Shown one piece after another: positions 1 through 18,962 of a stretch of 44,886 nucleotides of DNA. Source of the stretch: Phycisphaerales bacterium (GTDB taxonomy: Bacteria > Planctomycetota > Phycisphaerae > Phycisphaerales > UBA1924); the NCBI GenBank assembly GCA_015487555.1, contig WFPK01000096.1, positions 1 through 44,886 of the forward strand, read 5' to 3'. The stretch's first letter is position 1, and every line of letters begins with the position of its first letter. The notes below the pieces were generated by a model that worked only from the letters and a program-made list of their open reading frames with translations, did no database searches and was not told the DNA's origin. Made by a program: the position numbers and the translations under genes.

Positions 1-2
1 AG

Positions 3-2778: not shown

Positions 2779-3107
2779 CGTACAGCGTCGGTGCGTTGTT
2801 GCACTTGAGCGGTGTTGTTGACCGGTGCCTGGGCACGATCTTGCGACTGTGCTGATTGAATCAGGTCGTAAGCCCGATCCGTCACCTTGGCCAGCACCAG
2901 CATGTCATCTCGCTGATACGAAGTGGTGGATTGCCAGTTGCCTTGTGCATCACGGTAGCGTTTCTCGAAGGTGACGCTGTAGTAGTGACGCCCCTCAGTA
3001 TTGGTGTTTTGCCAAATCGCGGCGTGAATGGATCCAAGCTGGACTTTGTCGAATGGTTTTTTTGTTGGTAGACATATTTCGTACTCCTTGTTGTTTGTGT
3101 TGATCAT
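2775..3107 (-). CDS. Small hypothetical protein upstream of ArdC; start possibly frameshifted
   Basis: As read, this is a 110-residue protein starting MINTNNKEYEICL at 3107 with only a weak ribosome site. The body (KPFDKVQLGSIHAAIWQN, YYSVTFEKRYRDAQGNWQS, YQRDDMLVLAKV) looks like a compact beta-rich domain of the kind carried on planctomycete mobile elements; its function is unknown to me. A better start is the ATG at 3073-3075: it has a GGAG at 3084-3087 with ideal spacing and begins MSTNKK, but a run of seven A's (complement of 3058-3064) puts it one base out of frame with KPFDKVQ. Six A's would give MSTNKKPFDKVQ directly. So the true N-terminus is either the one given or a slippage/sequence-error product. 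It is coupled to the ArdC-like gene by a 4-bp overlap. Confidence 0.6.
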   Translation of the reverse strand: MINTNNKEYEICLPTKKPFDKVQLGSIHAAIWQNTNTEGRHYYSVTFEKRYRDAQGNWQSTTSYQRDDMLVLAKVTDRAYDLIQSAQSQDRAQAPVNNTAQVQQRTDAVR

Positions 3108-3147
3108 GGCCCTGATCAGCCGGTACGCGCAGCGGGGATCAAGCGAA

Positions 3148-3199
3148 CAGCCGCACACTCAGAAGTGTGGGATCGGCTGCAGAAAGCTCGTTTACGAGC
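3148..3199. other. Structured intergenic DNA between divergent units
   Basis: The space between the ArdC unit and the graspetide operon (about 3108-3410) carries no convincing gene. It holds a strong imperfect hairpin, CAGCCGCACACT (3148-3159) pairing with AGTGTG (3164-3169) and CGGCTG (3174-3179), then a second hairpin GCTCG-TTTA-CGAGC (3186-3199), and a short one with ATCCC/GGGAT near 3233-3247. None is followed by a T-run, so they are not obvious intrinsic terminators. They could be protein-binding palindromes (such as an oriT-like or regulator site) or structure in a leader RNA. The sequence alone does not decide. Confidence 0.35.
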
Positions 3200-3331
3200 C
3201 TTCGAAGCCGACGGCCGCTTGAAACCAGCGAGCATCCCGGCAAGGGATTACCATAAAGATCAATCACCAACACAGAGGAGTACAGAGGGTGTTGAAAATG
3301 GCAAGCAGTCTAAATGCATCAAACAAACATG

Positions 3332-3351
3332 GTTGGTAGACATATTTCGTA
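3332..3351 (+). repeat. 20-bp direct repeat of the 3064-3083 start region
   Basis: The 20 bases at 3332-3351 are identical to 3064-3083. The first copy spans the MSTN start codon of the minus-strand small gene, so the second copy carries the same reversed ATG plus four codons but lacks the GGAG ribosome site. It lies about 60 bases upstream of the graspetide precursor and just before its candidate promoter. Likely a duplication or recombination scar: it may record insertion of the operon into a formerly continuous ArdC-unit leader, or be a repeated regulator site. Confidence 0.7.
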
Positions 3352-3359
3352 GTTTGGGA

Positions 3360-3390
3360 TTGCACTAATATGAGGCTATTGCCGTACAAT
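3360..3390 (+). promoter_or_regulatory. Candidate promoter of the graspetide operon
   Basis: A TTGCAC box at 3360-3365 and a TACAAT box at 3385-3390 are separated by 19 bases, a longer than ideal spacer for a sigma-70 promoter. The predicted start would fall close to the ribosome site AAGGAG (3397-3402), leaving a very short leader before the ATG at 3411. Inference from motif match only; it is the best candidate in the 300-base gap upstream of the operon. Confidence 0.35.
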
Positions 3391-3410
3391 GAGACCAAGG
3401 AGTACAGAGC

Positions 3411-3839
3411 ATGAGAGTAAATAGTTCAGTTTCTGGTTTGCCTTTTTGGTCCGCATTTGAGGAGCCGTCAGGTGATCCAAACACTGACTTGGCTGGCAAA
3501 ACAATGACCTTCACACGAGAAGAACCTGATCAGGAGCTTTGTTATTTGTCTCAGTCAACAAAGACGGTGACAGAGACACGGGAAGAGAATGACCAAGACC
3601 CAATTGGAAACATGCGTACAATCCCTCTGGCTGTTGCAAGTAAAACACAAACTATGACCATGACCAAGACAAGAGAAGAGCAAGACCAGGATGCTCCTAG
3701 CAATGGGATGTCAGCTATTCCACGGCCGATTTCTGTTCACTCACAAACTCAGACCAGGCAGAGAGAGGAGCCCGATCAAGATGAATCGGTCAAACACCTT
3801 TCATCAATCCCCCATCATGCAGGGACATTCAATGGATGA
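3411..3839 (+). CDS. Graspetide (omega-ester/amide RiPP) precursor with four core repeats
   Basis: A 142-residue precursor. Residues 1-30 form a leader containing PFWSAFEE (11-18), which resembles the PFFARFLE recognition helix of microviridin leaders. Four aligned 12-residue cores follow: TMTFTREEPDQE (31-42), TVTETREENDQD (52-63), TMTKTREEQDQD (83-94) and TQTRQREEPDQD (113-124). The consensus is T-x-T-x-(T/Q)-R-E-E-x-D-Q-(D/E): Thr hydroxyls on one side and acidic side chains on the other, the donors and acceptors of graspetide macrolactones. Cores 2-4 are each followed by a spacer containing (M/L)-x-x-I-P (68-72, 100-104, 130-134), giving a unit of about 30 residues. There is one Cys only. 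The start at 3411 has AAGGAG 8 bases upstream, and the stop overlaps the ATP-grasp gene by 8 bp. The core differs from the microviridin TxKxPSD core; the graspetide group needs a database comparison. Confidence 0.85.
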   Translation: MRVNSSVSGLPFWSAFEEPSGDPNTDLAGKTMTFTREEPDQELCYLSQSTKTVTETREENDQDPIGNMRTIPLAVASKTQTMTMTKTREEQDQDAPSNGMSAIPRPISVHSQTQTRQREEPDQDESVKHLSSIPHHAGTFNG

Positions 3840-4809
3840 ATCTGTAGTTCTCATATTTACAAACTCAGAGGATGTGACTGCTGATTATCTATGCGATCGT
3901 CTGAGAAAATCTCAAATGGACCTCATTCGCTTTGACACTGACACATCGCTTGATTCCCTACGGGTAAACTTGACCCTAGATGGTCTCACGCTCACATGGG
4001 GAGATAGATCAGTGCGTCCTGAACAAATCGGGACGGTTATTCATCGTCGGCCAAAGCCATTGGTTTTGAATGTAGGTGGAGATGAATATCAGCAGAATCA
4101 TACTTCTGAAGAGTGGGCAGAGGCAATTGAGGGTTTTCTCGCTCATATACCGGCAGACAAATGGATTAATCATCCAACTAAGAACTATATGGCATCGCAT
4201 AAAGTCCAACAGCTCACTTACGCACACAAATGCGGCTTGAATGTGCCAGAATGGATGGTGACGACATCTCCTGAGCAAGCAAATGATTTTTTAATCGAAC
4301 ATGGATCAGAAGCAATTGTAAAGCCGTTGGCCAGCGGATACATAGAGCGTGATACTCCTGATCGCGACACCCTTATTTACACAAGAAGTATAACTGACAC
4401 AGATATTGCCTTGCTCGACAGACTTCCCAATTGTCCGGTTCTCTTTCAAGAACGCGTAAATAAACGGGCTGATGTGAGACTGGTTGTTGTGGATAATCAG
4501 ATGGAAGCAGTTTCACTTGTGGCTTGCGATCAAAGTGGAAATCAGCGGTTGGATATACGGCGAGACAATATGTGTGATGTAGAATACACATCAGTCCCGG
4601 TGCCTTCATCTGTCTATGAAGGAGTGTCAAAGATGATGCAAAAATATGCACTCAGGTTTGCAGCGATTGATTTTGCAATCACTGACGATGGTAAATGGAT
4701 GTTCTTTGAGGTGAATCCAAACGGTCAATGGGCATGGCTCGATTTAGCTGGAGCAAGTGATATTGGTCAGATGTTCGTTGATTCATTGCAGAAATTGTCG
4801 GGGAATTAA
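3832..4809 (+). CDS. Graspetide ATP-grasp macrocyclase (MvdC/MvdD-like)
   Basis: A 325-residue ATP-grasp ligase, the usual length for graspetide maturases. These enzymes phosphorylate core Asp/Glu side chains and close omega-esters with Thr/Ser or amides with Lys; with no Lys at equivalent positions in most cores here, ester rings are the likely product. Visible features: the pre-ATP-grasp N-terminal domain with RFDTD (33-37), the RRPKP motif (72-76), an ATP-site lysine in IVKPLASG (about 164), the RADVR motif (212-216), and Mg-binding D280, E293 and N295 within FFEVNPNGQWAW, which is close to the EINPNGQW signature of MvdD-type ligases. The ATG at 3832 overlaps the precursor stop by 8 bp and follows AGGGA at good spacing; longer upstream starts would lie in the precursor gene. 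The stop overlaps the next start by one base. Only one ligase is present, unlike the pair in microviridin clusters. Confidence 0.9.
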   Translation: MDESVVLIFTNSEDVTADYLCDRLRKSQMDLIRFDTDTSLDSLRVNLTLDGLTLTWGDRSVRPEQIGTVIHRRPKPLVLNVGGDEYQQNHTSEEWAEAIEGFLAHIPADKWINHPTKNYMASHKVQQLTYAHKCGLNVPEWMVTTSPEQANDFLIEHGSEAIVKPLASGYIERDTPDRDTLIYTRSITDTDIALLDRLPNCPVLFQERVNKRADVRLVVVDNQMEAVSLVACDQSGNQRLDIRRDNMCDVEYTSVPVPSSVYEGVSKMMQKYALRFAAIDFAITDDGKWMFFEVNPNGQWAWLDLAGASDIGQMFVDSLQKLSGN

Positions 4810-5654
4810 TGGTGCCAAAACAACCTTCGCAAAATGCTTCCTCATCGAATTGGTTACAGACAGCGATGAACAAGATTGAAGCTGCGTCTGTTTATCTCGC
4901 ATACAGGGTTGTTTGGTTGATGATGGCAGTTCTTAACCCTGGTCACACATTTTCAGAAATCAAAGATGGGAACATGGAATATGAGCAACAAGTTGACGCT
5001 GTAAATGTCTGCGATGCCGATGATCCTCAATTTGCTCTGGATGAGGCTCGCAGATATATGGAGCAAGAAGAGCAGCGGCGGATGGTAATTGACGACAAAA
5101 GCAAGGTAATGTTAACGGTAGCGGCCATTCTTTTCGCAGCCAATGCAGCTGTTCTTTCTAGATTATCGGTTTGGTGGTTTGGGCTGGTTCCTTTGGGTTC
5201 CTTGTTCATGTCCGTTTATTTGACTCTGATGTATTTCCGGACTTACACCTTGCAGGTTATTGATTATTCAAAAATCACATGGACTGATACAAAGGATACG
5301 AAACAGGAGATTGCTCAACAGGAGTTCAATTGCGTAGCAGGTATGGAGTCGCAAAATAGTTTGCGTATCGGTGTCCATAAAGCATCACGGCGTGCACTGA
5401 TTTTGGCTCTGGGATCGACATTTATCGTGGTGTGCATTCAGATGATACAACCACAACCCAAGGATGCTCTCGTGAACAGAATCGAAACCGATGCAGAAGT
5501 CCGCGAGCTACTTCGAGGGCCAGCGGGTTTAGCTGGACCACAAGGGGAAGTGGGGCCGACTGGTCCTACGGGGCCTCAAGGTAGCCGAGGCACACAAGGG
5601 GAGCCGGGTGTATCCAGTGTGGTGCACAAACAGAATTATGAGAGCAGTGATTAG
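4809..5654 (+). CDS. Three-helix membrane protein with C-terminal collagen-like tail
   Basis: A 281-residue protein. After a mildly hydrophobic stretch (about 27-43) and an acidic helix with YMEQEEQRRMVIDDKSK (83-99), there are two adjacent transmembrane segments (about 100-117 and 121-143), a 50-residue soluble loop and a third segment (about 195-213). Residues 237-269 are eleven uninterrupted Gly-X-Y triplets (GPAGLAGPQGEVGPTGP...), a collagen-like sequence expected to trimerise, then a 12-residue end. The charged-helix plus two-TM arrangement recalls small bacterial membrane effectors of the SLATT/Pycsar type, but I see no family signature strong enough to assign it. The TAATG overlap with the ATP-grasp gene shows tight coupling. 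It could anchor, export or sense the modified peptide, or act as the membrane component of a defence-like system. Confidence 0.75.
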   Translation: MVPKQPSQNASSSNWLQTAMNKIEAASVYLAYRVVWLMMAVLNPGHTFSEIKDGNMEYEQQVDAVNVCDADDPQFALDEARRYMEQEEQRRMVIDDKSKVMLTVAAILFAANAAVLSRLSVWWFGLVPLGSLFMSVYLTLMYFRTYTLQVIDYSKITWTDTKDTKQEIAQQEFNCVAGMESQNSLRIGVHKASRRALILALGSTFIVVCIQMIQPQPKDALVNRIETDAEVRELLRGPAGLAGPQGEVGPTGPTGPQGSRGTQGEPGVSSVVHKQNYESSD

Positions 5655-5655
5655 G

Positions 5656-7503
5656 ATGAAGGAAGAGGAGACTAACACAATTTCAAAAACACGGAGAAAG
5701 AGATTGAAAACTCCTCAACAAGTACTTGATCAGCTCTCCATCTTTGATGCGAGAAATGACACTTTTAGTATTCATGATGTTCAATCTGCAATTTCCAGTT
5801 CCATCGAACTAAAAAGCCTTTCTGATGATATCCGTCGCGGGTATTGGGCAGAAGTTGCGGCGTTTGTATTCAACACTCATTCAACTACCGATGGGGGGAG
5901 CCGGCAGGCATATTTTCAACCTATCTTCTCACTTGATGGTGAGGGCGGTACTGCAATCTACAGGCCTGGCACTAAGGAAGTTGATGTTGAAGTGATCAAC
6001 TATTGGGCATCGCGTGCAAGGTCTGTCAAACATCCTACTTTGGCAGCACGCTATGCTGACCTTGCTTGGGATTTGGGCAAGAATATCCCCGGACACAAAA
6101 CAGAAGTAGAGTTTGCACGCTTGGCAATAGATTCGTATATAGCTGCTTTAAGACTGGATGGCGGGGATGCATGGGGCGACAATCGAGACAATGTCGAGCG
6201 AGTGCTGAGACTTTCCATGAGCATTAGTGATATTCAGCGAGTCAATAGTGCAGTAGATGCCATCATTGATTATGCTGATCGAACTTCTCAAGAAGATCAA
6301 ATTGGAACCTATTGCTATCTGTTTGAACTGCTTCTTCCGGCTAAGAAAGGGCCACCTATCTCAGCAGCAAAAGAGAAGATGATTGTTACCATGTTCGAAA
6401 CTCGATTTGGAAAGATGATTGTTCCAGGTAGTCCATACGATGTGGATCCCCATTCTCCGCAAAGCATCGGTCTATTACTAGCCAGCTACTATGGCCGCAA
6501 TAATCGAACCGAAGACCGCATTTACACACTCGTAGAAATTGCCAAAGCATTTGAGCGGCGAGCAAATGTTGGCGACGCAATTTCTGGTGTGATGTTTTTA
6601 AAGGACGCACATCGGTACTATATCGATGCTGGGAAGCGATCAGAAGCCGAGCGTGTTCTCCGTGAGATACAGGCCTTAGCTCCTCAAGCAAAAGAAGGGA
6701 TGGCTTGCCATACATACGAGTATGAAATATCAGAAGAAGACCGAATGGAGTTTTTGAATGGAATGATGGCCGGTGGTGTTGAAAGCGGTTTTCGAGAATG
6801 GACAATACACTTTGTTCCCCGACAAACTGAAATACGGGAATGGAAAGTTAAAAGTGATAATCAGTTTCCATTTCAAGCCATGTTCGCTCCAACGATTCTG
6901 AACGATGAAGGGATTCAAGCCAATGTGGATGACACAAGAGGTGATCCAGATGGGCCAATGATTTGGGAAACTCAGAAGAGAATGGGCTTAAGCACGGTAT
7001 GGATATCGTGGGGGCTAGATCATCTGATCAAAAATGGCCTAGATTCAGAAGCCTTTGTAAAATTTATTAATCCATCTCCAGTGTTTGACCAAGAAAGGCT
7101 TCCCTTGATCAAACAAGGGATAGATGCACATCTTCGAGGTGACTACATTCAGTCAATCCATATTCTGGTGCCGCAAATAGAGCGGGCATTGGTACTGCTT
7201 ATGCTGCTTCTTGGAGAGTCAAATACCAAAACCCACCGTACAGGGCGGGGTGTTCTTCAGTCAATGAACATGAATGATGCACTGGCCAATGATGCAGTTC
7301 GGAATGCTCTCGGCGAGGATTTAAGGATGTACCTTTCGGCTTCGCTTTCCCACCCCAAAGGGTTAAATATTCGAAATGAAGTTTGCCATGGACTTTGGAA
7401 GCCATCGGCATTTACAAAATATGCGAGTGAAAGAGTCATACACACAATGGCCGCTCTATCGCTTATCCGAAAAAGTACTCAGCCAGATGAGGATTCTGAT
7501 TAA
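5656..7503 (+). CDS. DUF4209-containing protein
   Basis: A 615-residue soluble protein with no signal peptide. The N-terminal two thirds are mostly helical, with TPR-like stretches (for example about 130-180 and 290-340). The C-terminal region contains RNEVCHG (573-579), which fits the RNxxxHG signature of DUF4209, preceded by a helix-rich segment from about residue 500 (IDAHLRGDYIQSIHILVPQ). The R-x4-H spacing also recalls HEPN RNase active sites, so an RNA-cleaving role is possible but unproven. I placed the start at 5656, one base after the upstream stop; an ATG at 5638 in the same frame would add six residues and overlap the upstream gene. Neither start has a strong ribosome site. Its position between the membrane protein and the STAND NTPase suggests it is a functional part of the operon. 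Confidence 0.7.
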   Translation: MKEEETNTISKTRRKRLKTPQQVLDQLSIFDARNDTFSIHDVQSAISSSIELKSLSDDIRRGYWAEVAAFVFNTHSTTDGGSRQAYFQPIFSLDGEGGTAIYRPGTKEVDVEVINYWASRARSVKHPTLAARYADLAWDLGKNIPGHKTEVEFARLAIDSYIAALRLDGGDAWGDNRDNVERVLRLSMSISDIQRVNSAVDAIIDYADRTSQEDQIGTYCYLFELLLPAKKGPPISAAKEKMIVTMFETRFGKMIVPGSPYDVDPHSPQSIGLLLASYYGRNNRTEDRIYTLVEIAKAFERRANVGDAISGVMFLKDAHRYYIDAGKRSEAERVLREIQALAPQAKEGMACHTYEYEISEEDRMEFLNGMMAGGVESGFREWTIHFVPRQTEIREWKVKSDNQFPFQAMFAPTILNDEGIQANVDDTRGDPDGPMIWETQKRMGLSTVWISWGLDHLIKNGLDSEAFVKFINPSPVFDQERLPLIKQGIDAHLRGDYIQSIHILVPQIERALVLLMLLLGESNTKTHRTGRGVLQSMNMNDALANDAVRNALGEDLRMYLSASLSHPKGLNIRNEVCHGLWKPSAFTKYASERVIHTMAALSLIRKSTQPDEDSD

Positions 7504-7556
7504 ATCGAGAAGAACACACATTGACTTCAATTCTTTTGTGTGTGAAAGATCAAACC

Positions 7557-10500
7557 ATGAACAAAATCGATTGGAAGAGATACTGGTGCCCCTTCGGAAC
7601 TCCTGTAGCTACCGACGGAGCATTTGTCACGAGCCCTATTTTTAACGGTCTTTACCAACCCAATGCAGACCTTGTTGAAACAGCATCTCTTCCGCGGTCT
7701 GGTGTCTGCATCCTCCTTGGCGAAGCTGGGCTTGGAAAGTCTACAGAGCTAAAACAATCTTGCGATAACTCAACTGGCATTCAGATTGTGGATTTAGGTG
7801 GGTTTAGTTCTGAGGATCGATTAGAGAGAAGCCTTGGAGAAGAAATGAAGAGCCTTCCAGAGCATGGGCTGCTGATTCTTGATGGATTAGATGAAGTTCT
7901 AATTGAGATGTCAAAGGCAGGCGATGTCATTCTTGGGTTTCTTCAAAAAAATAAAGGGAATGTCAATTTATGGATTTCATGTCGAACAGGTGCTTGGCCA
8001 ACAACACTAACGGGCCGCATCCGTGAAATCTTCAATCCAGACCCAGATACGGATCTAGTTCGCGAGTTCGAGTTGTGCATGCTCCGAAGAAAAGATGTAG
8101 AACTGGCCGTATCAAGCCTTGATGACACTGAATCGTTCTGGAAAAAGCTTAGGGCTACGGGTGCAGAATCATTAGCTGCAAAGCCAACAACACTTGGAAT
8201 GCTCCTTTCGTTGTCAGAGAATGATAAGTTCCCGTCGACTCGTGTGGAATTATATGAGCAAGGCTTGCTGAAGCTTTGCACCCAAGCCCCTATTCGATCT
8301 GATCGAAGTTCAAGGGGGCATTCAGCACAAGAGTGGTTTGCGGTTGCCGAACGAGTTGCTGGCAGGCTTTTTTTATCAGGCCATGCCTCATTGGCTAAGT
8401 CTGGGGAGCACGGAAATGAATCAGAAGTTGTTTGTCAGCAAGATTTGGTTGGTGGATATGCAAATATTCCACATCAAGATTCATTGCTCATTTCAGAAGA
8501 GGTGATTCAAACAGTAGTTGGTCACACCGCACTATTCTCTGGTCGAACCTCTGGGATTAACGGATTTGCCCATAAATCATATGGTGAGTATCTCGCTGCA
8601 CGATATCTGTGCAATGCACTGAAAAAGCCACAGAGAGACTCCTTGTTGTATGTTCTGGTTGGCGGAGTTCGCAGGATTGTGCCGCAGCTAAATGAAATTG
8701 CGGCATGGGTTGCGGATATGGATTCAGATTTCAGGAAGCAGTTACTGAAAGAAGAGCCCTCAGTTCTTCTTCGTAGCGATATGTCGGTACAACCTGCCTC
8801 GGAGAGAACAGAGCTTGCCACAGCACTATTGAATGCAGTTGAGAGTGGATCTGTTTATCGTATCGAAGACACACTAGATTTAAGTGGGTTCGGTGGGCAG
8901 CGATACTCGACAATGCGACAGTTGCTTGAACGCCTTTCGTGTTCTGAAATGGCGAATGCTATTCGACCTTGGCTTACGAACAAAGCTTTGAATGTAAGGA
9001 CTCGTGAAACAGCAATCACCATTGCTTGGTTTACAAATACCGTTGAGCTTAGTCCTGAACTTCTGGCTATTGCAACTGATAAAGATGAGCACCAAGGGTT
9101 AAGACAAGAGGCAGGGTATGCAATCTCTGAGATGGGTGCTGGCAAACAAAAGAAGGGATTGATTTCATTGCTTGACGAAGGGGTAGATGATCCGGATGAC
9201 CAGCTTCGTGGTATTGCATTAAGGGCCTTGTGGCCAGATTGCTTGACTCCAATCAAACTCCTTGAGTATCTAGTCCCGAGAAAGGCCACAAATTTCCATG
9301 GGAGTTATGCAGGTTTTCTTTCTGGGCTGAAGGAGATGTCGTTTATCCCCAATGACGATCTGCCGAATGCGATCCAATGGGCATCTTCGATTGATGTCCA
9401 CCGAGGCTTTGGCAGTGACATTGGAGGTATTGCAGGGCTAATTGCATATGAAGCTTGGGTTAGAATGGATCAGGCCGATGTGATTGATGAATTGTCTGAC
9501 TTAGCCTTAAAGAGAGTAAAAGAGCATCAAGCTCTCCTAAGATTACCCGATCCAAACAGCGAAAGTGTTTGGGAATCACAAAAAAACTCTGCCGTGTACG
9601 CGCTTATCAAATCAGATTCAAGCCGACGAAGGAAGCTCTTAACGGCATGCCTGTTCAAGCTGAAAGATCCAAGCAAGTCGTTTCAGTTTATTGGAATTGG
9701 GTCAGACTTGACTCTTGCACTATCTGAAGATTTTGAATGGGCAATGGAGCAAGCATGCACTCTTTCGGGTGAACAAGCCATTGCGATGGCACACCTAGCA
9801 CGCCGTCTGTGCACTTATGTTGATGTAGGGCCAATGCGGAATAGAGAGCATCTGGAGATGTGGCTAGAAATGCGTGAGGGATCTAAAGCCATACGAGATG
9901 TACTGGATTGGCCACTTTCGATAGAGATTGGTAGCAAAGAAGCATCAGAGATGAAAGAGGACTGGCTAAAAGAGGAGGAATGGAAACAAAGAAGTCAACA
10001 GCACAAACAGAAATGCAGTAAGGCGATCTCTGATCGAGCGGATCTTATTGAGAAACTCATAGATCGAGCCCTTGTCGATGATATCCGGTTTGTTCCTAAA
10101 CTGTTATATGAATTGCTTGTAGATGAAAAGCTGCAAATACAAAACATAGACGATCTGACCCAAAGCCCTGGATGGGCAAAGGCTACCCAAGAGCAACAAG
10201 CGGATATCTTGGAGTGCTGTTTGCGGTATCTGATTGATTGTCCTTTGCCCAATAAAAAAGGAGTCGAAGAGGAAGAAGCTTTACTGCCGGGATGGGCAGC
10301 AAGGGCTCTGTTGCTCATACAAACTATTGACGAAAAAATGCTGGATAAAATCGATACGCAGAGGTTGGCTGAGCTAACGCCCTTCGTTGTTAGGGGAGTA
10401 TCAAATTTATTCAGCCCTGGAAAACAAACACTTCGTGTAGTGGACTATGTATTGCAGCGAAACTCAGAAGTGACTCGCAAGGCAATTATACTCGATATAC

Positions 10501-11810
10501 AGAATTGTTCCAGCCAGCAGCATGCCACTTGCATTTTGGAGTCAATGGAGTCTGTAGATGAAACACTTGGAGAAATGGTTCTGGAGGGACTCAGAAATGG
10601 CTTGTCTTTGAAGCCAATAGGTTCAGCACTGTTGATGTGGTCAATCAAGAAGGGGGTTTCAGGAGCATTTAAGGATGCCTGTTCTGTATTGGAGAAGAAG
10701 CCTAGAGGCAACACTGGTTGGGATGAGTTTTCTAGTATTATTCGTGCGATTGCTACTGAATCAGCAAACAACTCATGGCCTGTGCTGTATAAGCAGGCAG
10801 AAAAATCGCGAAAACGAGCTCGCAGAGTCTTGGCTGGGATCCAATCAAGCCGTGGACGATATGCAAATGACAATGAATTTCATTCTGAGTTAGAAGATGA
10901 GGCGCTCGCAGATTTACTATTCTTACTATTCAAACACTATGACCCAAAGTCTGATGAGGAACATTCTGAGTCAGGAGTCGCCTCAACAGAGGGTGATGTC
11001 CGTCGGTGGCGCCATTCTGTCTTAAGAGAACTTGTTGGACGAGGAACACCAGCATCAGTAGAACACTTGAGAGAAATGAGTAGAAAGTTCCCTGAACACG
11101 AGTGGCTTAGCTCGCATGTTCTTGATGCGATGGGACAACAAGCCAAATCAGAGTGGAATCCGCCGAAGGCCATTGAGTTGTTAAAAATGGAAGAGCAAGC
11201 AAAGAGTCGATTGATAAGATCAGGAGATGAGCTTCTTTCCGTGCTTTCAGACAGCCTAATCCGATGGAATAAAGATAAGCGGGAAAATGACCTTATAAGA
11301 TTAATGTGGAATGAAATCAGAAAAGGGATTTGGAAGCCAAAGGATGAAGAAGATTTAAGCCAAGAGCTAATGGGCTGGTTGCGCACCGATCTAAGAAATC
11401 ATCAAGTGGTAATAGGTAGGGAACTGCAATTCTCCCGCCGAACATCGAAGGATGGCGTAGCAGGTACGAGAGTTGATATCTCTGTTGATGCTATATCACC
11501 AGATCCACAGGTTGATCCAGTCAAGGCAATAGTTGAAGTGAAAGGTAGCTGGAATAAAGGAGCTAAAGGGGCAATGAAATCACAACTGGTCGATAGGTAT
11601 TTTGTGGAGGATCGCGTCAACAACGGCTTGTATGTTGTTGGCTGGTATGAAGCACCTGGCTGGGAGTCATCCGATGGAAGAAGAACAAGCAGTCCATGGA
11701 AGAAAATGGATATTGCTATTGCAGATTTGTCTAGCCAGGCATCTCGGCTTCAAATCGGTCACCCTGAATACTGTGTATCAAGTCTTGTTCTTGACTGCAC
11801 TTTGACCTGA
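7557..11810 (+). CDS. Giant STAND/NACHT-type NTPase with C-terminal PD-(D/E)XK-like nuclease domain
   Basis: A 1417-residue protein. Near the N-terminus is a P-loop NTPase: Walker A GEAGLGKST (55-63), Walker B LLILDGLDEV (105-114), an arginine sensor region (SCRTGAW) and, further on, AHKSYGEYLAARYL, typical of NACHT/STAND ATPases. A long helical region with HEAT-like repeats follows (clearest at about 480-590), of the kind that senses ligands in STAND proteins. The last 120 residues contain D1307 in GTRVDIS and E1327-V-K1329 in IVEVKGSW, a PD-(D/E)XK-type active site. So sensor, switch and probable DNA-cutting effector sit in one chain, an architecture known from anti-phage STAND proteins, though with the nuclease at the C-terminus. 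The start at 7557 is preceded by a weak GAAAG; a TTG at 7521 is possible. A 53-base gap separates it from the DUF4209 gene, with no terminator. Confidence 0.8.
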   Translation: MNKIDWKRYWCPFGTPVATDGAFVTSPIFNGLYQPNADLVETASLPRSGVCILLGEAGLGKSTELKQSCDNSTGIQIVDLGGFSSEDRLERSLGEEMKSLPEHGLLILDGLDEVLIEMSKAGDVILGFLQKNKGNVNLWISCRTGAWPTTLTGRIREIFNPDPDTDLVREFELCMLRRKDVELAVSSLDDTESFWKKLRATGAESLAAKPTTLGMLLSLSENDKFPSTRVELYEQGLLKLCTQAPIRSDRSSRGHSAQEWFAVAERVAGRLFLSGHASLAKSGEHGNESEVVCQQDLVGGYANIPHQDSLLISEEVIQTVVGHTALFSGRTSGINGFAHKSYGEYLAARYLCNALKKPQRDSLLYVLVGGVRRIVPQLNEIAAWVADMDSDFRKQLLKEEPSVLLRSDMSVQPASERTELATALLNAVESGSVYRIEDTLDLSGFGGQRYSTMRQLLERLSCSEMANAIRPWLTNKALNVRTRETAITIAWFTNTVELSPELLAIATDKDEHQGLRQEAGYAISEMGAGKQKKGLISLLDEGVDDPDDQLRGIALRALWPDCLTPIKLLEYLVPRKATNFHGSYAGFLSGLKEMSFIPNDDLPNAIQWASSIDVHRGFGSDIGGIAGLIAYEAWVRMDQADVIDELSDLALKRVKEHQALLRLPDPNSESVWESQKNSAVYALIKSDSSRRRKLLTACLFKLKDPSKSFQFIGIGSDLTLALSEDFEWAMEQACTLSGEQAIAMAHLARRLCTYVDVGPMRNREHLEMWLEMREGSKAIRDVLDWPLSIEIGSKEASEMKEDWLKEEEWKQRSQQHKQKCSKAISDRADLIEKLIDRALVDDIRFVPKLLYELLVDEKLQIQNIDDLTQSPGWAKATQEQQADILECCLRYLIDCPLPNKKGVEEEEALLPGWAARALLLIQTIDEKMLDKIDTQRLAELTPFVVRGVSNLFSPGKQTLRVVDYVLQRNSEVTRKAIILDIQNCSSQQHATCILESMESVDETLGEMVLEGLRNGLSLKPIGSALLMWSIKKGVSGAFKDACSVLEKKPRGNTGWDEFSSIIRAIATESANNSWPVLYKQAEKSRKRARRVLAGIQSSRGRYANDNEFHSELEDEALADLLFLLFKHYDPKSDEEHSESGVASTEGDVRRWRHSVLRELVGRGTPASVEHLREMSRKFPEHEWLSSHVLDAMGQQAKSEWNPPKAIELLKMEEQAKSRLIRSGDELLSVLSDSLIRWNKDKRENDLIRLMWNEIRKGIWKPKDEEDLSQELMGWLRTDLRNHQVVIGRELQFSRRTSKDGVAGTRVDISVDAISPDPQVDPVKAIVEVKGSWNKGAKGAMKSQLVDRYFVEDRVNNGLYVVGWYEAPGWESSDGRRTSSPWKKMDIAIADLSSQASRLQIGHPEYCVSSLVLDCTLT

Positions 11811-11864
11811 ATTTGAAGAGCGGAGTTAAAGAGCGGGGCAATTTGGCAGATTCCTACCTCCACC

Positions 11865-11936
11865 TGAGTTCCAAAATGAGTTCCAGATCGATGTCTCAAG
11901 AATGGCAAAGAACGGCAAAAACTGGCAAAGACTCGG
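11865..11936. repeat. Clustered short direct repeats next to the att-like site
   Basis: Two copies of TGAGTTCCA (11865-11873 and 11877-11885) are followed by three near-identical 10-bp units with the core GGCAAA (11901-11930). An inverted pair AATCACTG (11963-11970) and CAGTGATT (11986-11993) comes next. Groups of short repeats beside a tRNA-derived attachment sequence are typical arm-type binding sites of tyrosine recombinases; that role is inferred here. The 480-base gap 11811-12291 holds no gene that I can support. Confidence 0.45.
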
Positions 11937-12009
11937 AATGGGAAAATGGCTTTCTGATTCAGAATCACTGATTTAGACCTAAAACCAGTGATTGCAAAAC
12001 ACCAAGCGG

Positions 12010-12027
12010 CGAATCCCCCTCTCTCCG
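12010..12027 (+). other. tRNA-Ser 3'-end fragment, probable attachment site (att)
   Basis: The 18 bases read as the 3' part of a tRNA-Ser gene: T-loop end CGAAT, T-stem strand CCCCC, acceptor strand TCTCTCC and discriminator G. The upstream 90 bases do not fold into a tRNA and lack the complementary GGAGAGA acceptor strand, so no tRNA gene is present. Integrating elements that use a tRNA gene leave such a fragment at their far end while the intact gene sits at the other. The native-looking terminator directly downstream fits this reading. It would set the right boundary of the mobile element that carries the relaxase, ArdC and graspetide operon. Confidence 0.55.
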
Positions 12028-12030
12028 TTG

Positions 12031-12060
12031 AATAAGCCCTTGCGTTTGCAAGGGCTTATT
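12031..12060 (+). terminator. Strong intrinsic terminator
   Basis: A perfect 13-bp stem, AATAAGCCCTTGC (12031-12043) with GCAAGGGCTTATT (12048-12060), has a GTTT loop and a T-run after it. It starts three bases after the tRNA-Ser fragment, so it was probably the terminator of the original tRNA gene and now also ends transcription of the graspetide/STAND operon, which has no other terminator. Confidence 0.85.
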
Positions 12061-12291
12061 TTGTAGGCGCTTGCGAGCGATGTTGCGGCAAGGGGTTGGC
12101 GTCTACTCTATTTTGTTTGGCTGAGGAGCTCGGCGATACGGATGCTTTTCGGAGAAGGTCGATTTGCGGGGATGCTCGTATGAGGGGTGATTTGTTTTGG
12201 AAGTAGGTACTCGAGGGCGAAAATCTCTGTTTTTCTTTTGGATTCGTGTCAGAATCGAGATCGGGATACGAACTATGGGGTAGGAGACACC

Positions 12292-12873
12292 ATGATCTGT
12301 TCAGGGACGACAACCACTTTGCTTGGCAGAATCCGTGAAGGTGGCAGCCAAGATGACTGGAAGGCACTGGTTACTCGGTACTGGCGGGTGATCTTTGGGT
12401 ATGCTCGGCTGTATGGGCTCAGTGAGGCTGACGCAGAAGATTTTACGCAGGATTTACTCGTTGAGTTGACCCGTGTGTTGCCGGAGTTTGATTATAACAG
12501 AGAGTATGGTGCGTTCCGGGGGTATTTACGAACCATCACACGCCGACGGCTGGTTGATCGGCTTCGGGCAACCCGCCCTGAGGTGAGCGAGTTGTTTGCG
12601 AATGAATCGCAAAACAAAGAGGTTGGATATTGGTGGGAAACGGAGTGGGACCGGGCGATGTTACGCCAGTGCCTCGATGAGGCCTCGTCGGCGGTCGAAC
12701 CAAAGACATTTCAAGCGTTCCAACTCTTTGTACTCAAGGAGTGGGATTCAAATCGTGTCGCCGACTTTCTTGGTCTGAGTATCGACAGCGTCTACCAAGC
12801 CAAGGCCCGTGTCATCCGGCATGCGAATGCGGTCTATGAACGGCTTCAACAAGAGGAGGGTGGTCATGACTGA
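12292..12873 (+). CDS. ECF-type RNA polymerase sigma factor
   Basis: A 193-residue sigma-70 family protein. Region 2 is seen in the stretch with FTQDLLVELTRVLPEFDYN and FRGYLRTITRRRLVDRL (about 65-105), and region 4 as the helix-turn-helix around VADFLGLSIDSVYQAKARVIRH (about 155-180). Group features match the large ECF families of planctomycetes that work with Ser/Thr kinases, and such a kinase follows. The start at 12292 is preceded by TAGGAG at good spacing; a longer in-frame start lies upstream but has no ribosome site. The stop overlaps the next gene by 8 bp (ATGACTGA). It probably directs transcription in response to a signal received by the neighbouring proteins; the target genes are unknown. 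Confidence 0.88.
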   Translation: MICSGTTTTLLGRIREGGSQDDWKALVTRYWRVIFGYARLYGLSEADAEDFTQDLLVELTRVLPEFDYNREYGAFRGYLRTITRRRLVDRLRATRPEVSELFANESQNKEVGYWWETEWDRAMLRQCLDEASSAVEPKTFQAFQLFVLKEWDSNRVADFLGLSIDSVYQAKARVIRHANAVYERLQQEEGGHD

Positions 12874-13138
12874 GCGTCCAAGCGAAGCGGAACTCGTTCG
12901 GTACATCGAAGGCGAGATGTCTGCGAAACGAGCAAAGCAGATTGAAGCCATGATTTCAGATCATCCGTCATTGGCAGCAGATGTGGACTTGCTCCGCAAG
13001 GCGTTGGCGATGCAGGATGATCTGCGCGATGCCATGCGAGATGCGCCTGAAGCGAAGGTGGAGCGGCGGATCGAGAACTCGCTTGTTGAAACGGTGACAC
13101 ATGTGATTGAGAAAGCACACGAAGGAGAGCATCTTTGA
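12866..13138 (+). CDS. Small protein coupled to the sigma factor, possible anti-sigma factor
   Basis: A 90-residue soluble protein starting MTERPSEAELVRYIEGEMSAKRAKQIEAMI. The N-terminal helix pattern (VRYIEGEMS....IEAMISDHPSLAADVDLL) is like the cytosolic anti-sigma domain in which a short helix-turn-helix binds an ECF factor, but the zinc-binding H-x3-C-x2-C motif is absent and there is no transmembrane segment. The start overlaps the sigma gene by 8 bp behind an AGGAGGG ribosome site, so it is translated together with it. A regulatory partner of the sigma factor is the best inference; the family match is weak. Confidence 0.65.
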   Translation: MTERPSEAELVRYIEGEMSAKRAKQIEAMISDHPSLAADVDLLRKALAMQDDLRDAMRDAPEAKVERRIENSLVETVTHVIEKAHEGEHL

Positions 13139-13233
13139 AATATCGGCATTCCTCAGTGTACTCTGTGCCGGTTCCTCATGACTCGAAGCGGATTCGGTTC
13201 TCTCCACAGTGACCGATACTGGTTTATGAGGGG

Positions 13234-13272
13234 ACGGCCTGCGGTGTTGGAGTGATCCATGCCGCAGGCCGT
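13234..13272 (+). terminator. Intrinsic terminator after the sigma-factor pair
   Basis: An 11-bp perfect stem, ACGGCCTGCGG (13234-13244) with CCGCAGGCCGT (13262-13272), encloses a 17-base loop and is followed by TGTTATTTTG. It ends the sigma and small-protein unit 96 bases after the stop and separates it from the kinase gene, which therefore needs its own promoter. Confidence 0.75.
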
Positions 13273-13327
13273 TGTTATTTTGTATTCTCTTGTGTGAGCT
13301 TATATGAAGATCGGGTTATCATGAGGT

Positions 13328-14791
13328 ATGGATAAGTTGGATGAGATCGGTGGGGGCGATGGGATCGGTGGTCTCAAGTCGGTGCGTTGTCTTGGGAGCG
13401 GGGCTGTTGGTGAGGTCTGGCTTGCCCATGATGCGGCGGGGCGAGAGGTTGCCCTCAAGCGGATTCCCATCGATAAGCGGCGAGGGCGATCTGTCCATAC
13501 GCGAGAACTCGCCGCCCTTGAACTCCTCGCCAATCGGCTCGGCGAGCAGAGCGGGCTTATCCATGTTTTTCATGTTGGCATCACCGACGATGAGTTGTGG
13601 TACACGATGGAGCTTGCTGATCTTGTTGGCGAGCCGCCGATGGTGCTTTCGCTTGATCGGGCCATTGAATCGGCAAAGCGATTCACTGGGCCCGATGCAC
13701 TCGATATCATCGAGCATCTTCTCGAAGGTGTCGGCGGCCTTCATGATGCGGGTGTGGTGCATCGAGACATCAAGCCGACGAATATTCTTTCGGTTGGGGG
13801 TGAGTGGAAGCTCGGCGATATCGGTTTGCTCTCCGAAGAGCGCACCGAAATGACCGCAGTGGGGACGCCTGAGTTTATTCCGCCTTGGGGGCCGATAGAT
13901 CGGCGGGCGGATTTGTATGCGATGGGGCGAGTGCTGTATTGCATGGCGACGGGATTGACCGCTCGCGCGTTTCCGACCTTGCCCGATGAACTGCTCAGGC
14001 CTGAGCGGCAGCATGAAACCAAACTGATGAACAGTTTAGTTCTTCGAGCGTGCGACCCTGATCCTGGCAAGCGATTTCAGACAGCCGAGGAGTTTACTGC
14101 GGAAGTACGGAAGGCTCGAAAAGAAATGAGCATGGGCGAAGGGTTGCTGACTCGCCGAAGAGCCGTCGTCGTTGGCGGAGGCGTGATTGCTGCAGCATTG
14201 GTTGCTCCGATGGTCTGGCCGATCATCCGAAATAAAGCAAAGTCCGCGCCCAAATGGATATCGCTGTTCGACGGCAAGACGCTTGATGGATGGGAAACTT
14301 CAGTTCTGCCATACGCTGGAAACTGGTTCGTGCGCGACGGTGAGATTGCATGTATGCGCGATCAAGGCTACAAGCAGCTGTATACAAAGCGAAAGTTTCA
14401 GTACGGGCGATTCCGTTCTGTCATGACCCCAGATCACGACCGAGCCAGACTCGGGCTTTTGTATGGGTACCCCGAGGCGTCTTTCTTTGTTTTGTACGAG
14501 GACAAATACTTATGGATCAAAAAAACGAAGCTCAGCGACGATCCTGAGGAACTCGATCGCTGGCGGAGTTTTCCAAGTACGATGATTCCCAAAGCTGGGC
14601 AAAGCGTGGCGATGGAACTCGATTGGGGACCCGATCGCACACGACTCTTTATCAACGGCAAGTTGCTTCAGGAAGTTCCTGGATTGCCACGACCAGGGCA
14701 AGTTGGCTTCTATGTGTGGGGGAAAGAGGAGGGCGATGAGCAAGGCGATAGCGGAAGCTTTCGAGATATCGAGTTTCAACCCAGAGCCTAG
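13328..14791 (+). CDS. Membrane Ser/Thr protein kinase fused to a DUF1080 (LamG-like) domain
   Basis: A 487-residue protein. Residues 15-265 are a Hanks-type kinase: glycine loop GSGAVGEV (23-30), ATP lysine in VALKRI (44), catalytic HRDIKPTN (145-152) and metal-binding D164 in a DIG rather than DFG motif. One transmembrane helix follows basic residues at about 279-300. Residues 310-487 form a DUF1080/3-keto-disaccharide hydrolase-like beta-sandwich beginning WISLFDGKTLDGWE, presumably outside the cytoplasm, where it may bind sugar. The layout is a sugar-sensing receptor kinase, and the preceding ECF sigma factor is the natural downstream partner. DUF1080 domains are very common in planctomycetes. 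The start at 13328 has only a close GAGG. The DIG variant is seen in active kinases, so activity is likely. Confidence 0.88.
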   Translation: MDKLDEIGGGDGIGGLKSVRCLGSGAVGEVWLAHDAAGREVALKRIPIDKRRGRSVHTRELAALELLANRLGEQSGLIHVFHVGITDDELWYTMELADLVGEPPMVLSLDRAIESAKRFTGPDALDIIEHLLEGVGGLHDAGVVHRDIKPTNILSVGGEWKLGDIGLLSEERTEMTAVGTPEFIPPWGPIDRRADLYAMGRVLYCMATGLTARAFPTLPDELLRPERQHETKLMNSLVLRACDPDPGKRFQTAEEFTAEVRKARKEMSMGEGLLTRRRAVVVGGGVIAAALVAPMVWPIIRNKAKSAPKWISLFDGKTLDGWETSVLPYAGNWFVRDGEIACMRDQGYKQLYTKRKFQYGRFRSVMTPDHDRARLGLLYGYPEASFFVLYEDKYLWIKKTKLSDDPEELDRWRSFPSTMIPKAGQSVAMELDWGPDRTRLFINGKLLQEVPGLPRPGQVGFYVWGKEEGDEQGDSGSFRDIEFQPRA

Positions 14792-14793
14792 GT

Positions 14794-14949
14794 CGTGTCT
14801 GACGGCTCGTTTATCAATCCGAATCTGGGTGCCACGACTCGCCCGAAGGGCGCAGTCGTGTTCTTTGATGGCGGAAAAACCAAAGCACTACTGCGCCGAA
14901 GACGGCGAGTAGTGGCACCCGATGGGATGTTTTTGAGCCGTCAGACACG
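14794..14949. repeat. Large nested palindrome, unit 1
   Basis: CGTGTCTGACGGCTC (14794-14808) is inverted exactly at 14935-14949 as GAGCCGTCAGACACG. It encloses the 94-bp GGGTGCC...GGCACCC element described separately. The gap between the kinase and malic enzyme genes (14792-15135) contains only this unit and a related second unit. Read as RNA either strand would fold into a long rod that could end transcription; read as DNA it looks like a non-autonomous repeat. Confidence 0.75.
14827..14920. repeat. REPIN-like dispersed palindrome, copy 1 (94 bp)
   Basis: It begins GGGTGCCACGACTCG and ends CGAGTAGTGGCACCC, an imperfect inverted repeat. Each half is itself a hairpin: CACGACTCG pairs with CGCAGTCGTG on the left, and CACTACTGCGCC with GGCGAGTAGTG on the right. 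Two facing hairpins in inverted orientation are the hallmark of REP doublets (REPINs) moved by RAYT/IS200-type transposases. A second copy of almost the same length lies at 41204-41296, so this is a dispersed family. No transposase gene is in the window. Confidence 0.75.
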
Positions 14950-14958
14950 GCCTAGGCG

Positions 14959-15058
14959 GTGTCTGCCAGCTCGTTTTCCCCGAAAACTCGCCTCTCTCGC
15001 GCTTGCGGGGGAGGCGAAAAGATGGCGCCTTTGTGTGAGAGAACGAGCCATCAGACAC
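14959..15058. repeat. Large palindrome, unit 2, related to unit 1
   Basis: GTGTCTGCCAGCTCGTT (14959-14975) faces AACGAGCCATCAGACAC (15042-15058), an imperfect inverted repeat of the same end sequence as unit 1. Inside is a smaller hairpin CGCCTC (14989-14994) with GAGGCG (15011-15016). The core differs from the GGGTGCC element of unit 1, so the two units share ends but not centres. They lie in tandem nine bases apart. Confidence 0.65.
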
Positions 15059-15135
15059 GATCGAATGAAGGAGAAGATCGGTTCTCCATTGAATACATTT
15101 CGCCCTTCCACCGTTTTTCGATCATCTTTTTTCGA

Positions 15136-16434
15136 TCATCTTTTTTCGTTGGCTGCTTGCTCGACCGCCTTGGCGACGCGGCGGTGGGCCTCGTGATCGA
15201 GCGGCGAGGGGATGAGCTCGCCCTCGGGAGCAGAATCGGCGATGGATTTGGCACCGGCGAGGAGCATCGAATCGGTGAACTTGGGGGCTCCCGAATCGAG
15301 GATGCCTCGGAAGAGCCCGGGGAAGGCGAGGACATTGTTGATGTTTCGCCCGTCAGCTGCGAACCGGGCGCCTCGCTCGAGGGCCAGCGCGGGCTCGATC
15401 TCGGGATCAGGGTTCGAGAGGGCGAAGATGATCTGCCCTTTGCGAACCATCTCGGGTTTGATGAGCCCCTTGACGCCTGTGGTCGAGATGACAACATCGG
15501 CGTTCTCCATCACAAAGTCGAGCTCGGCGGGGATGCCTCCGATGTCCTTGAGCCTTGCCTGGGCATCCGACGAGAGGTCGGCCCCGAGGATTTGGTGGAC
15601 TCCAAAGCGCATGAGCAGCTGGGCGATGCCCAGCCCGGCTGCGCCGAGCCCGATCTGTCCGATGACACATTCTTCGAGATTGACCCCGGTGATCCGGGCC
15701 GCGTTGATCAGCGCCGCGATGACCACGACCGCGGTGCCGTGCTGGTCATCGTGGAGGACGGGGATATCGAGCTGGGCGCGGAGCTGATTTTCGATCTCGA
15801 AGCATTCGGGAGCTGCGATGTCTTCGAGCTGGATCGCACCAAACGAAGGCGCGATCGCCTTGACGACGCGGACGATCTCATCGGCGTCCTTGGTCTCAAG
15901 GAGGATGGGGATTCCTGAGACGCCTGCGAAAATCTGGAAGAGTGCCGCCTTGCCCTCCATGACGGGGAGCCCGGCGACCGGGCCGATATCACCGAGTCCC
16001 AGGATGGCGGTGCCGTTGGTCACGATGGCGACGGTGTGGGCCAGCGAGGTGTACTTGCGGGCGAGGGCGGGGTCTTTTTCGATCGCCAGGCACACATGGG
16101 CGACGCCTGGGGTGTAGACATCTCGAAGAATTTGCAGGGTGTCGATGGCGGATCGCGAGTTGACTTCGATTTTGCCGCCCTCGTGCCTGCGCATGATCCG
16201 ATCGGACTTGCCGATGACGGTCGCGATGGGGAGCTCGTCGATTTTCGCGCACAGGGCATCGACGAGGTTTTCTTCCATCTCGACGGTGAGTTCCCAGCGG
16301 GTTCGGTTCTGTTTGCGATCGAGCGACTGGAGGGCTTGAACAGGGACTCCGGCATCGCCGACAACCGCAAGCACCTTGGCGAGATTGCCCGGGGCATGGA
16401 CAACTTCGAGCAGGAGGATGTGTGTGATTTTCAT
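15136..16434 (-). CDS. Malic enzyme with N-terminal ACT domain
   Basis: A 432-residue NAD(P)-dependent malic enzyme, which oxidatively decarboxylates malate to pyruvate and CO2 in the cytosol. Residues 1-75 form an ACT-type regulatory domain (MKITHILLLEVVHAPGNLAK). The catalytic part shows RDVYTPGVAHVC, TNGTAILGLGDIG, the metal-binding ED segment, HDDQHGTA, and the NAD(P)-binding IGLGAAGLGIAQLL. ALSNPDPEIEP and GLFRGILDSGA are further family blocks. The short bacterial type matches in length apart from the ACT addition, which suggests control by an amino acid or similar ligand. I chose the start at 16434 (AAGGAG upstream); a longer frame to 16536 has no support. It is a single-gene unit, divergent from the P-type ATPase and converging on the palindromic repeats. 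Confidence 0.93.
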   Translation of the reverse strand: MKITHILLLEVVHAPGNLAKVLAVVGDAGVPVQALQSLDRKQNRTRWELTVEMEENLVDALCAKIDELPIATVIGKSDRIMRRHEGGKIEVNSRSAIDTLQILRDVYTPGVAHVCLAIEKDPALARKYTSLAHTVAIVTNGTAILGLGDIGPVAGLPVMEGKAALFQIFAGVSGIPILLETKDADEIVRVVKAIAPSFGAIQLEDIAAPECFEIENQLRAQLDIPVLHDDQHGTAVVVIAALINAARITGVNLEECVIGQIGLGAAGLGIAQLLMRFGVHQILGADLSSDAQARLKDIGGIPAELDFVMENADVVISTTGVKGLIKPEMVRKGQIIFALSNPDPEIEPALALERGARFAADGRNINNVLAFPGLFRGILDSGAPKFTDSMLLAGAKSIADSAPEGELIPSPLDHEAHRRVAKAVEQAANEKR

Positions 16435-16649: not shown

Positions 16650-18962
16650 ATGCAAGCGCATCTTCAGACGACCGACCCGGTTTGTGGCATGTCCATCACC
16701 CAAGAATCGGCAGCCCAGTCGATCGAATACAACTCGCAAACCTATTACTTCTGTAGCGACAAATGCGCAGGCAAGTTCAAAGACGATCCTGAGCACTACC
16801 TCACACCGGCTGAAGATCGACCCGCTGACGATGCGCCCAAGGATGTGATCTACACATGCCCGATGCACCCCGAGATTCAGCAGGTCGGGCCCGGGTCGTG
16901 TCCCAAGTGCGGGATGAATCTTGAGCCGATGGATGCAGGGGCAGAGCAGGATGATTCCGAGCTGCGCGATATGACGCGCCGGTTTTTGATCTCCGCTTTT
17001 TTTACCCTTCCATTATTGGTTGTTGCGATGGGCAATCTGCTCCCGAATCAGCCCATTGACAAGCTCATGGGGCATACGGCTGCGCGGTGGAGCGAGCTGA
17101 TCCTGGCGACGCCTGTGATTCTGTATTGCGCCTGGCCTTTCTTTGTGCGGGCGGTGGAATCGGTCAAGCACAAAAGCCCCAATATGTTTACGCTCGTCGG
17201 GATGGGCGTGGGCGTGGCGTATCTCTTTAGCGTGGTCGCCACCCTCGCGCCTGGGATTTTCCCAGATGCCTTCCGCAGTGAAACCGGATTCGTCGCGGTC
17301 TACTTTGAAGCGGCAGCCTTTATTGTCATGCTCGTGCTGCTGGGACAAGTCCTCGAACTCCGCGCACGATCGCAAACCGGCTCGGCGATCCGCGAGCTCC
17401 TCCAACTCGCCCCGCCGACGGCGATGCTCATCGGCGACGACGGCACCGACACCGAAGTGGCGGTTGAAGTGCTCAAAAAGGGCGATCGCGTGCGGGTCCG
17501 CCCGGGCGACAAAATCCCCATCGACGGCGTCGTCACCGACGGACACTCAACCGTCGACGAATCCATGATTACCGGCGAGCCGATCCCCGTCACCAAAGAA
17601 CAAGGTTCGCAAGTCACCGGCGGCACCGTCAACATGACCGGGTCGTTCGAGATGGAGGTCGAGCGTGTTGGATCGGACACCATGCTCGCCCAGATCGTGC
17701 AGATGGTCGCCGACGCCCAGCGCTCGCGTGCGCCGATCCAGAAACTCGTTGACGCTGTCGCTTCGTGGTTTGTGCCCGCGGTGATCGTGATTGCGATCGT
17801 GTCGTTTATTGTCTGGTCGCTTGTTGGGCCGCCGCCGGCGATGGCCTACGCCCTGATCGCTGCGATCTCGGTGCTCATTATCGCCTGCCCGTGCGCGCTG
17901 GGGTTAGCCACCCCGATGTCGATCATGGTCGCAGCGGGCAAGGGGGCGCAGAACGGCGTGCTCATCAAGGACGCCGAGGCGCTCGAAACCTTCGAGAAAA
18001 TCACCACCATCGTCGTCGATAAAACCGGCACACTCACCGAGGGCAAGCCCAAGCTCGTCGATGTGCAGACGATTGATGGCATCGATGAACGCCGAATGCT
18101 CTCGATGATTGCTGCAGCTGAGCGATCGAGCGAGCACCCATTGGCCAGCGCGATTGTCAGCGGCGCCAGCGAACGAGGCGTCGATCCGATGGAGGTCGAA
18201 AACTTCGAGTCCGTCACCGGCAAGGGCATCAAAGCAACCGTCGATGGCATCGAGATCGGGATCGGATCGCCCAAGATGATGATTGCGATGGATATAGACC
18301 CTTCGCCATTGCAAGACGCTGCGGATGAAGCAAGAAAACAAGGGCAGACCGCGATGCTCGTTGCGGTGGGGGGGCATCTCGGCGGGATGATCGCTGTTGC
18401 CGATCCGATCAAGGAATCAACTCCGGGCGCGATCGAAGCGATGCACAAGCTCGGGTTGCGCGTGGTGATGCTCACAGGTGACAACGAAACCACCGCCCGC
18501 GCCATCGCAGCAAAGCTCAACATCGACGATGTAAAAGCCGATGTCCTGCCTGGGCAAAAGGCCCAGGTCGTCAAGGAGTTTCAGTCCAGGGGCGAACAGG
18601 TTGCGATGGCAGGCGATGGTGTCAACGATGCTCCGGCATTGGCCCAGGCAAACATCGGCATCGCGATGGGCACCGGCTCAGGCGTCGCCATCGAGAGTGC
18701 GGGCATGACCCTCATCGGAGGCGATCTGCGCGGGTTAGTCCGCGCTCGCAAACTCAGCACCTCGACGATGCGCAATATCCGTCAGAACCTGTTCTTCGCC
18801 TTTGTGTACAATGCTGCGGGCGTACCGATCGCAGCGGGGGTGTTGTATCCACTCTTCGGCAAGGCGGCGCTGCTGAGCCCGCTGATCGCAGCGGTGGCGA
18901 TGAGCCTGAGCTCGTTCTCGGTCATCGTCAACGCCCTTCGGCTTCGCCGCGTCAAGCTCTAG
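16650..18962 (+). CDS. Copper-type P1B ATPase with YHS and heavy-metal-binding domains
   Basis: A 770-residue heavy-metal transporting ATPase that should export Cu+ or a similar soft metal across the inner membrane. In order: a YHS domain (DPVCGM at 9-14 and FCSDKC at 34-39), a small metal-binding motif CPMHPEI...[12 protein letters not shown] (70-93), two pairs of transmembrane helices (about 110-235), the actuator domain with TGE (308-310), the CPC metal-site helix (413-415), the phosphorylation site DKTGT (457-461), the ATP-binding domain, the hinge GDGVNDAP, and two final helices containing [11 protein letters not shown] and MSLSS, typical of CopA. Instead of the usual HMA domain it uses YHS plus the Cys/Met motif, as in many environmental CopA/CopB-like pumps. 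The start at 16650 follows AAGGGGAG. The gene is divergent from malic enzyme and precedes the nuclease-fold gene by 20 bases. Confidence 0.92.

Follow-up and report, generated by a model that had tools for sequence, protein, structure and literature searches.

The window analysed here, a stretch of 44,886 nucleotides (contig WFPK01000096.1 of a Phycisphaerales bacterium, genome G000), raises the question of why the last bases of a serine tRNA gene stand behind an operon with a graspetide-type precursor and a STAND protein. A sequence-only reading had taken this fragment, together with the terminator behind it and the short repeats ahead of it, as the right end of an integrative element that carries the operon as cargo of a conjugative element. 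Our analysis makes it very probable that an integrative element, most likely a mobilizable one, sits in tRNA-Ser(GGA) and that positions 1-12032 form its right end. The host is a marine planctomycete, and the element is ordinary in kind and new as a family; a literature search found no published description of planctomycete integrative elements or of this family.

The fragment at 12010-12032 (+), CGAATCCCCCTCTCTCCGTTGAA, consists of the 18 bases that end tRNA-Ser(GGA) and five bases beyond, and the length first given as 18 bases was accordingly corrected to 23. A search of the window's own genome returned an exact second copy, once only, at C36:3190-3212 (-) (E 1e-4). There it closes an intact tRNA-Ser(GGA) gene of 89 nt at C36:3194-3282 (ARAGORN), so that the intact gene with the same end, proposed earlier as a check, was found in the same genome. 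The tRNA scan detected no tRNA-Ser inside the window, in line with the claim that none lies upstream of the fragment. A direct repeat of the tRNA end with the tRNA kept intact, as expected for elements integrated at a tRNA gene by a tyrosine recombinase, is thus present as 23 bp in G000, and also on one contig in the complete genome G043.

The core repeat closes an attR module (P arm plus core; 11852-12032, +) that is 87-93% identical over 174-183 bp in three other species of the genus (G009:C32, G015:C29 and G016:C54), and that has the same geometry in eight copies. It holds two candidate arm-type integrase sites, GAGTTCCA, at 11866-11885 (+), starting at 11866 and 11878 with a 12-bp period, the same sequence being also found 50 bp inside attL beside the intact tRNA. 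Three GGCAAA boxes with a 10-bp period follow at 11904-11929 (+; starts 11904, 11914 and 11924). The direct repeats reported ahead of the fragment proved to be real, and the arm repeats among them belong to the module conserved in eight copies. The arm spacing was 12 bp in all of the modules (8/8), the distance from the first arm to CGAATC was 144, 144, 144, 144, 147, 144, 144 and 146 bp, and the boxes sit at +38, +48 and +58 from the first arm in 4/4 genus copies, while they are in part lost from the modules of other genera. The arm sequence would be bound by the integrase, and for an HTH_17 directionality factor the boxes, spaced one helical turn apart in the stretch from arm to core, offer the best candidate sites. 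An exact scan for the phased boxes gave no match in viral contigs, and in the reference genomes it recovered three known relatives and otherwise apparent chance matches only (one such inspected). Right after the tRNA fragment comes the terminator previously noted, a 14-bp hairpin at 12030-12061 (+; -22 kcal/mol, z -7.8), which is probably the original terminator of the tRNA gene and which a simple terminator scanner missed because its T-run is only four bases long.

Behind the intact tRNA-Ser of C36 stands a hairpin that differs from the one in the window, and GAGTTCCAAAAGAGTTCCAGATC comes next, about 50 bp away from the end of the tRNA. The arm repeats therefore lie inward of both copies of the tRNA end, which agrees with the expectation for attL and attR. 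The hairpin in which the intact tRNA now ends is element-borne, is placed, as read from the sequence, like the original terminator and presumably acts as one. Past the attL arm, C36 carries an insertion sequence (rve transposase) directly adjoining the arm, a pRiA4b ORF-3 gene and a DUF6088 gene, and then stops, indicating that the middle of the element is unassembled. Joining C36 to the window contig by end overlap failed; since attL and attR are on separate contigs, it is the tRNA type and G016 that support pairing them. A second attL module occurs in G000 at tRNA-Ser(CGA) (C95:133-221, L060), and no attR partner for it was found in the G000 assembly.

The double arm, GAGTTCCA-N1-6-GAGTTCC, was detected at 13 sites in six of the 21 genus genomes, and 11 of these sites stand in attL or attR contexts. 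The attL modules follow tRNA-Ser(GGA) in G000, G016 and G001, and tRNA-Ser(CGA) in G000 (C95), G016 and G009; the attR modules of the genus terminate in an acceptor strand of the GGA or CGA type, the type of the fragment being that of the occupied tRNA in G000 and G009. More modules were recovered from other genera of the family in a wider search. Both G009 and G015 have an attR that closes an element with the same backbone and other cargo, and in G016:C54 (L068:1-360) the attR is fused straight to a second attL, forming a tandem insertion. The tRNA fragment of this last copy, CCCCCCCTCTCCG, matches the tRNA of G001 and not that of G016, suggesting that a core can arrive with an element from another species.

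The left part of the window is the backbone of the family: the DNA of positions 1-3295 is 86-89% identical to the matching parts of G009 and G015, small conserved ORFs included. It begins with the C-terminal 340 aa of a MobF/TrwC relaxase-helicase (3-1025, +), cut by the contig start; the G015 relaxase is complete at 948 aa, and its residues 609-948 are 89% identical to this part. The N-terminus is missing from the G000 assembly. An ArdC-like antirestriction protein (1381-2778, -; Pfam ArdcN) is 90% identical to the G009 homologue that adjoins its attR, and a conserved 127-aa backbone ORF (2775-3158, -) lies in DNA that is 87-89% identical to the G009 and G015 loci (L066 and L067) up to 3295. 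A tRNA-Val called by ARAGORN at 2820-2901 was rejected as false, as it falls inside this ORF and was not called in the homologous loci. The GC content is 55% in the backbone (1-3295), 45% in the cargo (3296-11851) and 57-59% to the right of the element, so that the change in base composition described between the operon and the following sequence is real.

A complete relative was found in G043, a single 3.6-Mb contig of another genus, where an element of about 60 kb lies between an intact tRNA-Ser (989110-989197, -) and a 23-bp repeat at 929100, TTCGAATCCCCCCCTCTCCGCTT, which duplicates the tRNA end and adjoins an attR module. Its genes include those for a TrwB-like coupling protein, an HTH_17 protein and an integrase that shares 48% identity with the G009 integrase near attL. 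A further tyrosine recombinase, which has an HTH_17 neighbour of its own, is 49% identical to the product of a G009 gene, and a MobF relaxase (51% identity) and an ArdC protein (53%) are encoded as well. The congener G042 has this tRNA-Ser too (990938-991025), with a native terminator behind it and, 85 bp on, the flank that is found at 864573 in G043; the 124.5 kb between the G043 tRNA-Ser and that flank are absent from G042 at that place. A second attL-like arm near 876 kb lies within this insert, which therefore looks like a tandem array. The relative without the element that had been called for thus exists at the family level, as the tRNA-Ser of G042 is unoccupied, and within the genus coaBC-tRNA-Ser(GGA) occurs without the module in G015 and G009. 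A search of the relatives for an empty site with both flanks of the window's own locus gave none, because the gene order to the right of the tRNA is kept in G016 only. Contig C54 of that genome, which starts with attR, is collinear with window positions 16382-44876, supporting a same-site insertion in both species, although the contigs do not join the two flanks.

Between ArdC and attR, the window carries 3296-11851 (+), a right-end segment not present in the other element copies; similarity to G009 and G015 stops at 3295 in both and resumes at 11852-11854. It contains a graspetide-type precursor recognised by its sequence, with four T-x-T...REE-x-DQ(D/E) repeats (3411-3839, +), an ATP-grasp peptide maturase (3826-4809, +; NCBIfam GRASP_SAV_5884, MvdC and MvdD, all below their cut-offs), a membrane protein with a collagen-like tail (4809-5654, +) whose place next to this ATP-grasp gene is conserved in another genus, a DUF7380/DUF4209 protein resembling the PADLOC candidate PDC-S39 (5608-7503, +), and a NACHT/HEAT STAND protein related to the antiphage protein EruA (7521-11810, +; NF058535, 219 bits over residues 53-1380, below its cut-off). 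The corresponding segment holds a QueC-like protein and a CD-NTase in G009, and a CAP12/TIR protein, a KAP NTPase and a HEPN protein in G015. As the content differs in the three copies, the space between ArdC and attR is a cargo slot that is exchanged wholesale and that mostly takes up likely anti-phage genes. The graspetide/STAND operon is therefore inside the element, in the exchanged slot, as had been proposed. The ATP-grasp gene was present in four of 301 genomes of the order, belonging to four genera, which fits mobile cargo. As a separate observation, the trio of precursor (T-x-T...REE-x-DQD repeats), ATP-grasp protein and collagen-tailed membrane protein at 3411-5654 is also found at L133 (G169), in another genus.

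The tyrosine recombinase gene to be looked for on the left turned up in relatives, on the contigs with attL in G009 and G015 and within the complete element of G043. The window genome's own assembly (93% complete, 115 contigs) yielded no integrase of the element family. Other integrases in G000 were rejected: those on contigs C91 and C24 resemble housekeeping Xer recombinases, and those on C64 and C104 show no close relationship to the element family. Viral contigs gave no relatives of the integrase. Two distantly related tyrosine recombinases, each beside an HTH_17 gene, occur in the same order in two genera (L116:7666-8955 and L069:28-1257 in G009:C64; L141:6115-7230 and 17596-18726 in G043). 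Elements of the same two genera also contain a set of type II secretion/pilin-like genes that includes giant proteins (L136/L137/L151 at 938-955 kb in G043; L114-L115 in G009:C64); the giant proteins have RHS repeats in G043, and the G009 set was judged from its ORF sequences only.

The description of the element as conjugative held in part. The family has its own relaxase, of the MobF/TrwC type and represented in the window by its C-terminal part, and a TrwB-like coupling protein in relatives, but no match to VirB4/CagE/TrbE was obtained in G000, G009, G015 and G016, and no mating-pore family of type IV secretion systems (T4SS) was identified among the approximately 30 proteins of the G043 element that were scanned. 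The term is therefore better read as relaxase-bearing and probably mobilizable, and the element is more likely mobilizable than self-conjugative. A complete T4SS including VirB4, the hallmark of an integrative and conjugative element (ICE), was not found in these four assemblies, which are incomplete, and this lowers the claim of an ICE without excluding it. That the element is a complete self-transmissible ICE, its T4SS genes being unassembled or too divergent for the model used, is consistent with the MobF relaxase and TrwB-like coupling protein, and with the presence of planctomycete plasmids' relaxases among the nearest ones in plasmid records; in view of the searches above we consider it improbable.

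A rather more plausible alternative, which we hold quite possible without favouring it, and which is a sub-case of the attR reading, is that the copy whose right end the window shows has decayed into a CIME, which keeps its att sites and has lost integrase or transfer genes, and moves in cis only or not at all. It accords with the lack of a family integrase in a 93%-complete assembly and with the tandem and degenerate copies in relatives (G016:C54, G015:C35 and G043 near 876 kb), and the insertion sequence directly beside the C36 attL arm suggests that the window's copy may be immobile. Against this, the right end, the ArdC gene and as much of the relaxase as the window shows are intact, with 89-90% conservation relative to other copies, and in an assembly fragmented into 115 contigs the absence of the integrase is weak evidence. 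The hairpin directly after the fragment might instead suggest a chance match, or a duplicated piece of tRNA kept only as a transcription terminator. This is extremely improbable, given that the chance expectation for the 23-mer in the genome is about 1e-7, and that the fragment always ends a conserved module of about 180 bp and, in G000 and G009, is of the same type as the occupied tRNA; the conserved module and the complete G043 element already refute it.

Under the preferred reading, an integrated and probably mobilizable element, a tyrosine integrase would have joined the attP of the element to the 3' end of the tRNA gene. The tRNA would have been rebuilt at the left end (C36), gaining an element-borne terminator, and the right end would have kept 23 bp that repeat the end of the tRNA and, probably, the terminator that the gene had before. 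In the excised form, the circle joint is predicted to consist of the arm-core segment 11852-12010 joined to CCGTTGAACCGCGTTC and the attL arms. Transfer would proceed via the MobF relaxase, with the mating pore presumably supplied by another element if none is encoded, and cargo would be exchanged in the slot between ArdC and attR. We tentatively propose, as a possibility that falls somewhat short of an even case, a Phycisphaerales family of MobF mobilizable elements with two tyrosine recombinases, each with an HTH_17 partner, and a fixed ArdC-attR slot that exchanges anti-phage modules wholesale (NACHT/EruA-like plus graspetide operon, CD-NTase/QueC, TIR/KAP).

In elements with tyrosine integrases, attL and attR each hold a copy of the core and have arm-type sites in common (PMC11963761), and the att anatomy described here fits this model closely. 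ICEs of the ICEMlSym R7A type, which use a winged-helix directionality factor usually encoded near the integrase, share the core direct repeats and the arm-type sites in attL and attR (PMC11963761), whereas here the arm sequence, GAGTTCCA, is another one, there are phased GGCAAA boxes, no T4SS was found and the host phylum is unrelated. The integrative and mobilizable elements (IMEs) with tyrosine integrases in tRNA genes share the integrase, att sites that repeat the 3' end of the tRNA, a relaxase of their own, the lack of detected secretion genes and frequent tandem accretion (PMC5704250), but the family here has a MobF relaxase and two conserved, distantly related tyrosine recombinases. A 2017 review stated that no canonical IME with a MobF relaxase was then known (PMC5704250), so that the family would be an exception if the absence of a T4SS holds; an arrangement with two recombinases is mentioned there for MTnPi1-3, putative IMEs of Prevotella (PMC5704250). 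The MobF relaxases of planctomycete and Runella plasmids are 30-37% identical over 93-97% of the relaxase, but here the gene lies in a chromosomal element.

These results set firm edges for a family of mobile elements from a phylum that has been little studied, and place a graspetide/NACHT operon inside a mobile element as exchangeable cargo. The arm pair, the phased boxes and the tRNA-Ser end offer a sequence handle for the same defence-exchange slot in other planctomycetes.

Several minor observations concern the right flank. A serine recombinase gene lies directly to the right of attR in G009 (L066:18623-19999, by Pfam) and in G015 (L067:14778-16514, by sequence), suggesting that another element is stacked at the same tRNA. 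In the window, the segment to the right of attR at 12187-16382 (sigma factor, kinase and a malic-enzyme-like segment) is absent from the collinear G016 contig, and the G016 sigma gene adjoins tRNA-Arg and rpsT. A short repeat at 14882-14921 recurs in several genus genomes (36 bp at 97-100% identity, longer at lower identity), with a 174-bp copy on C36 at 17186-17359.
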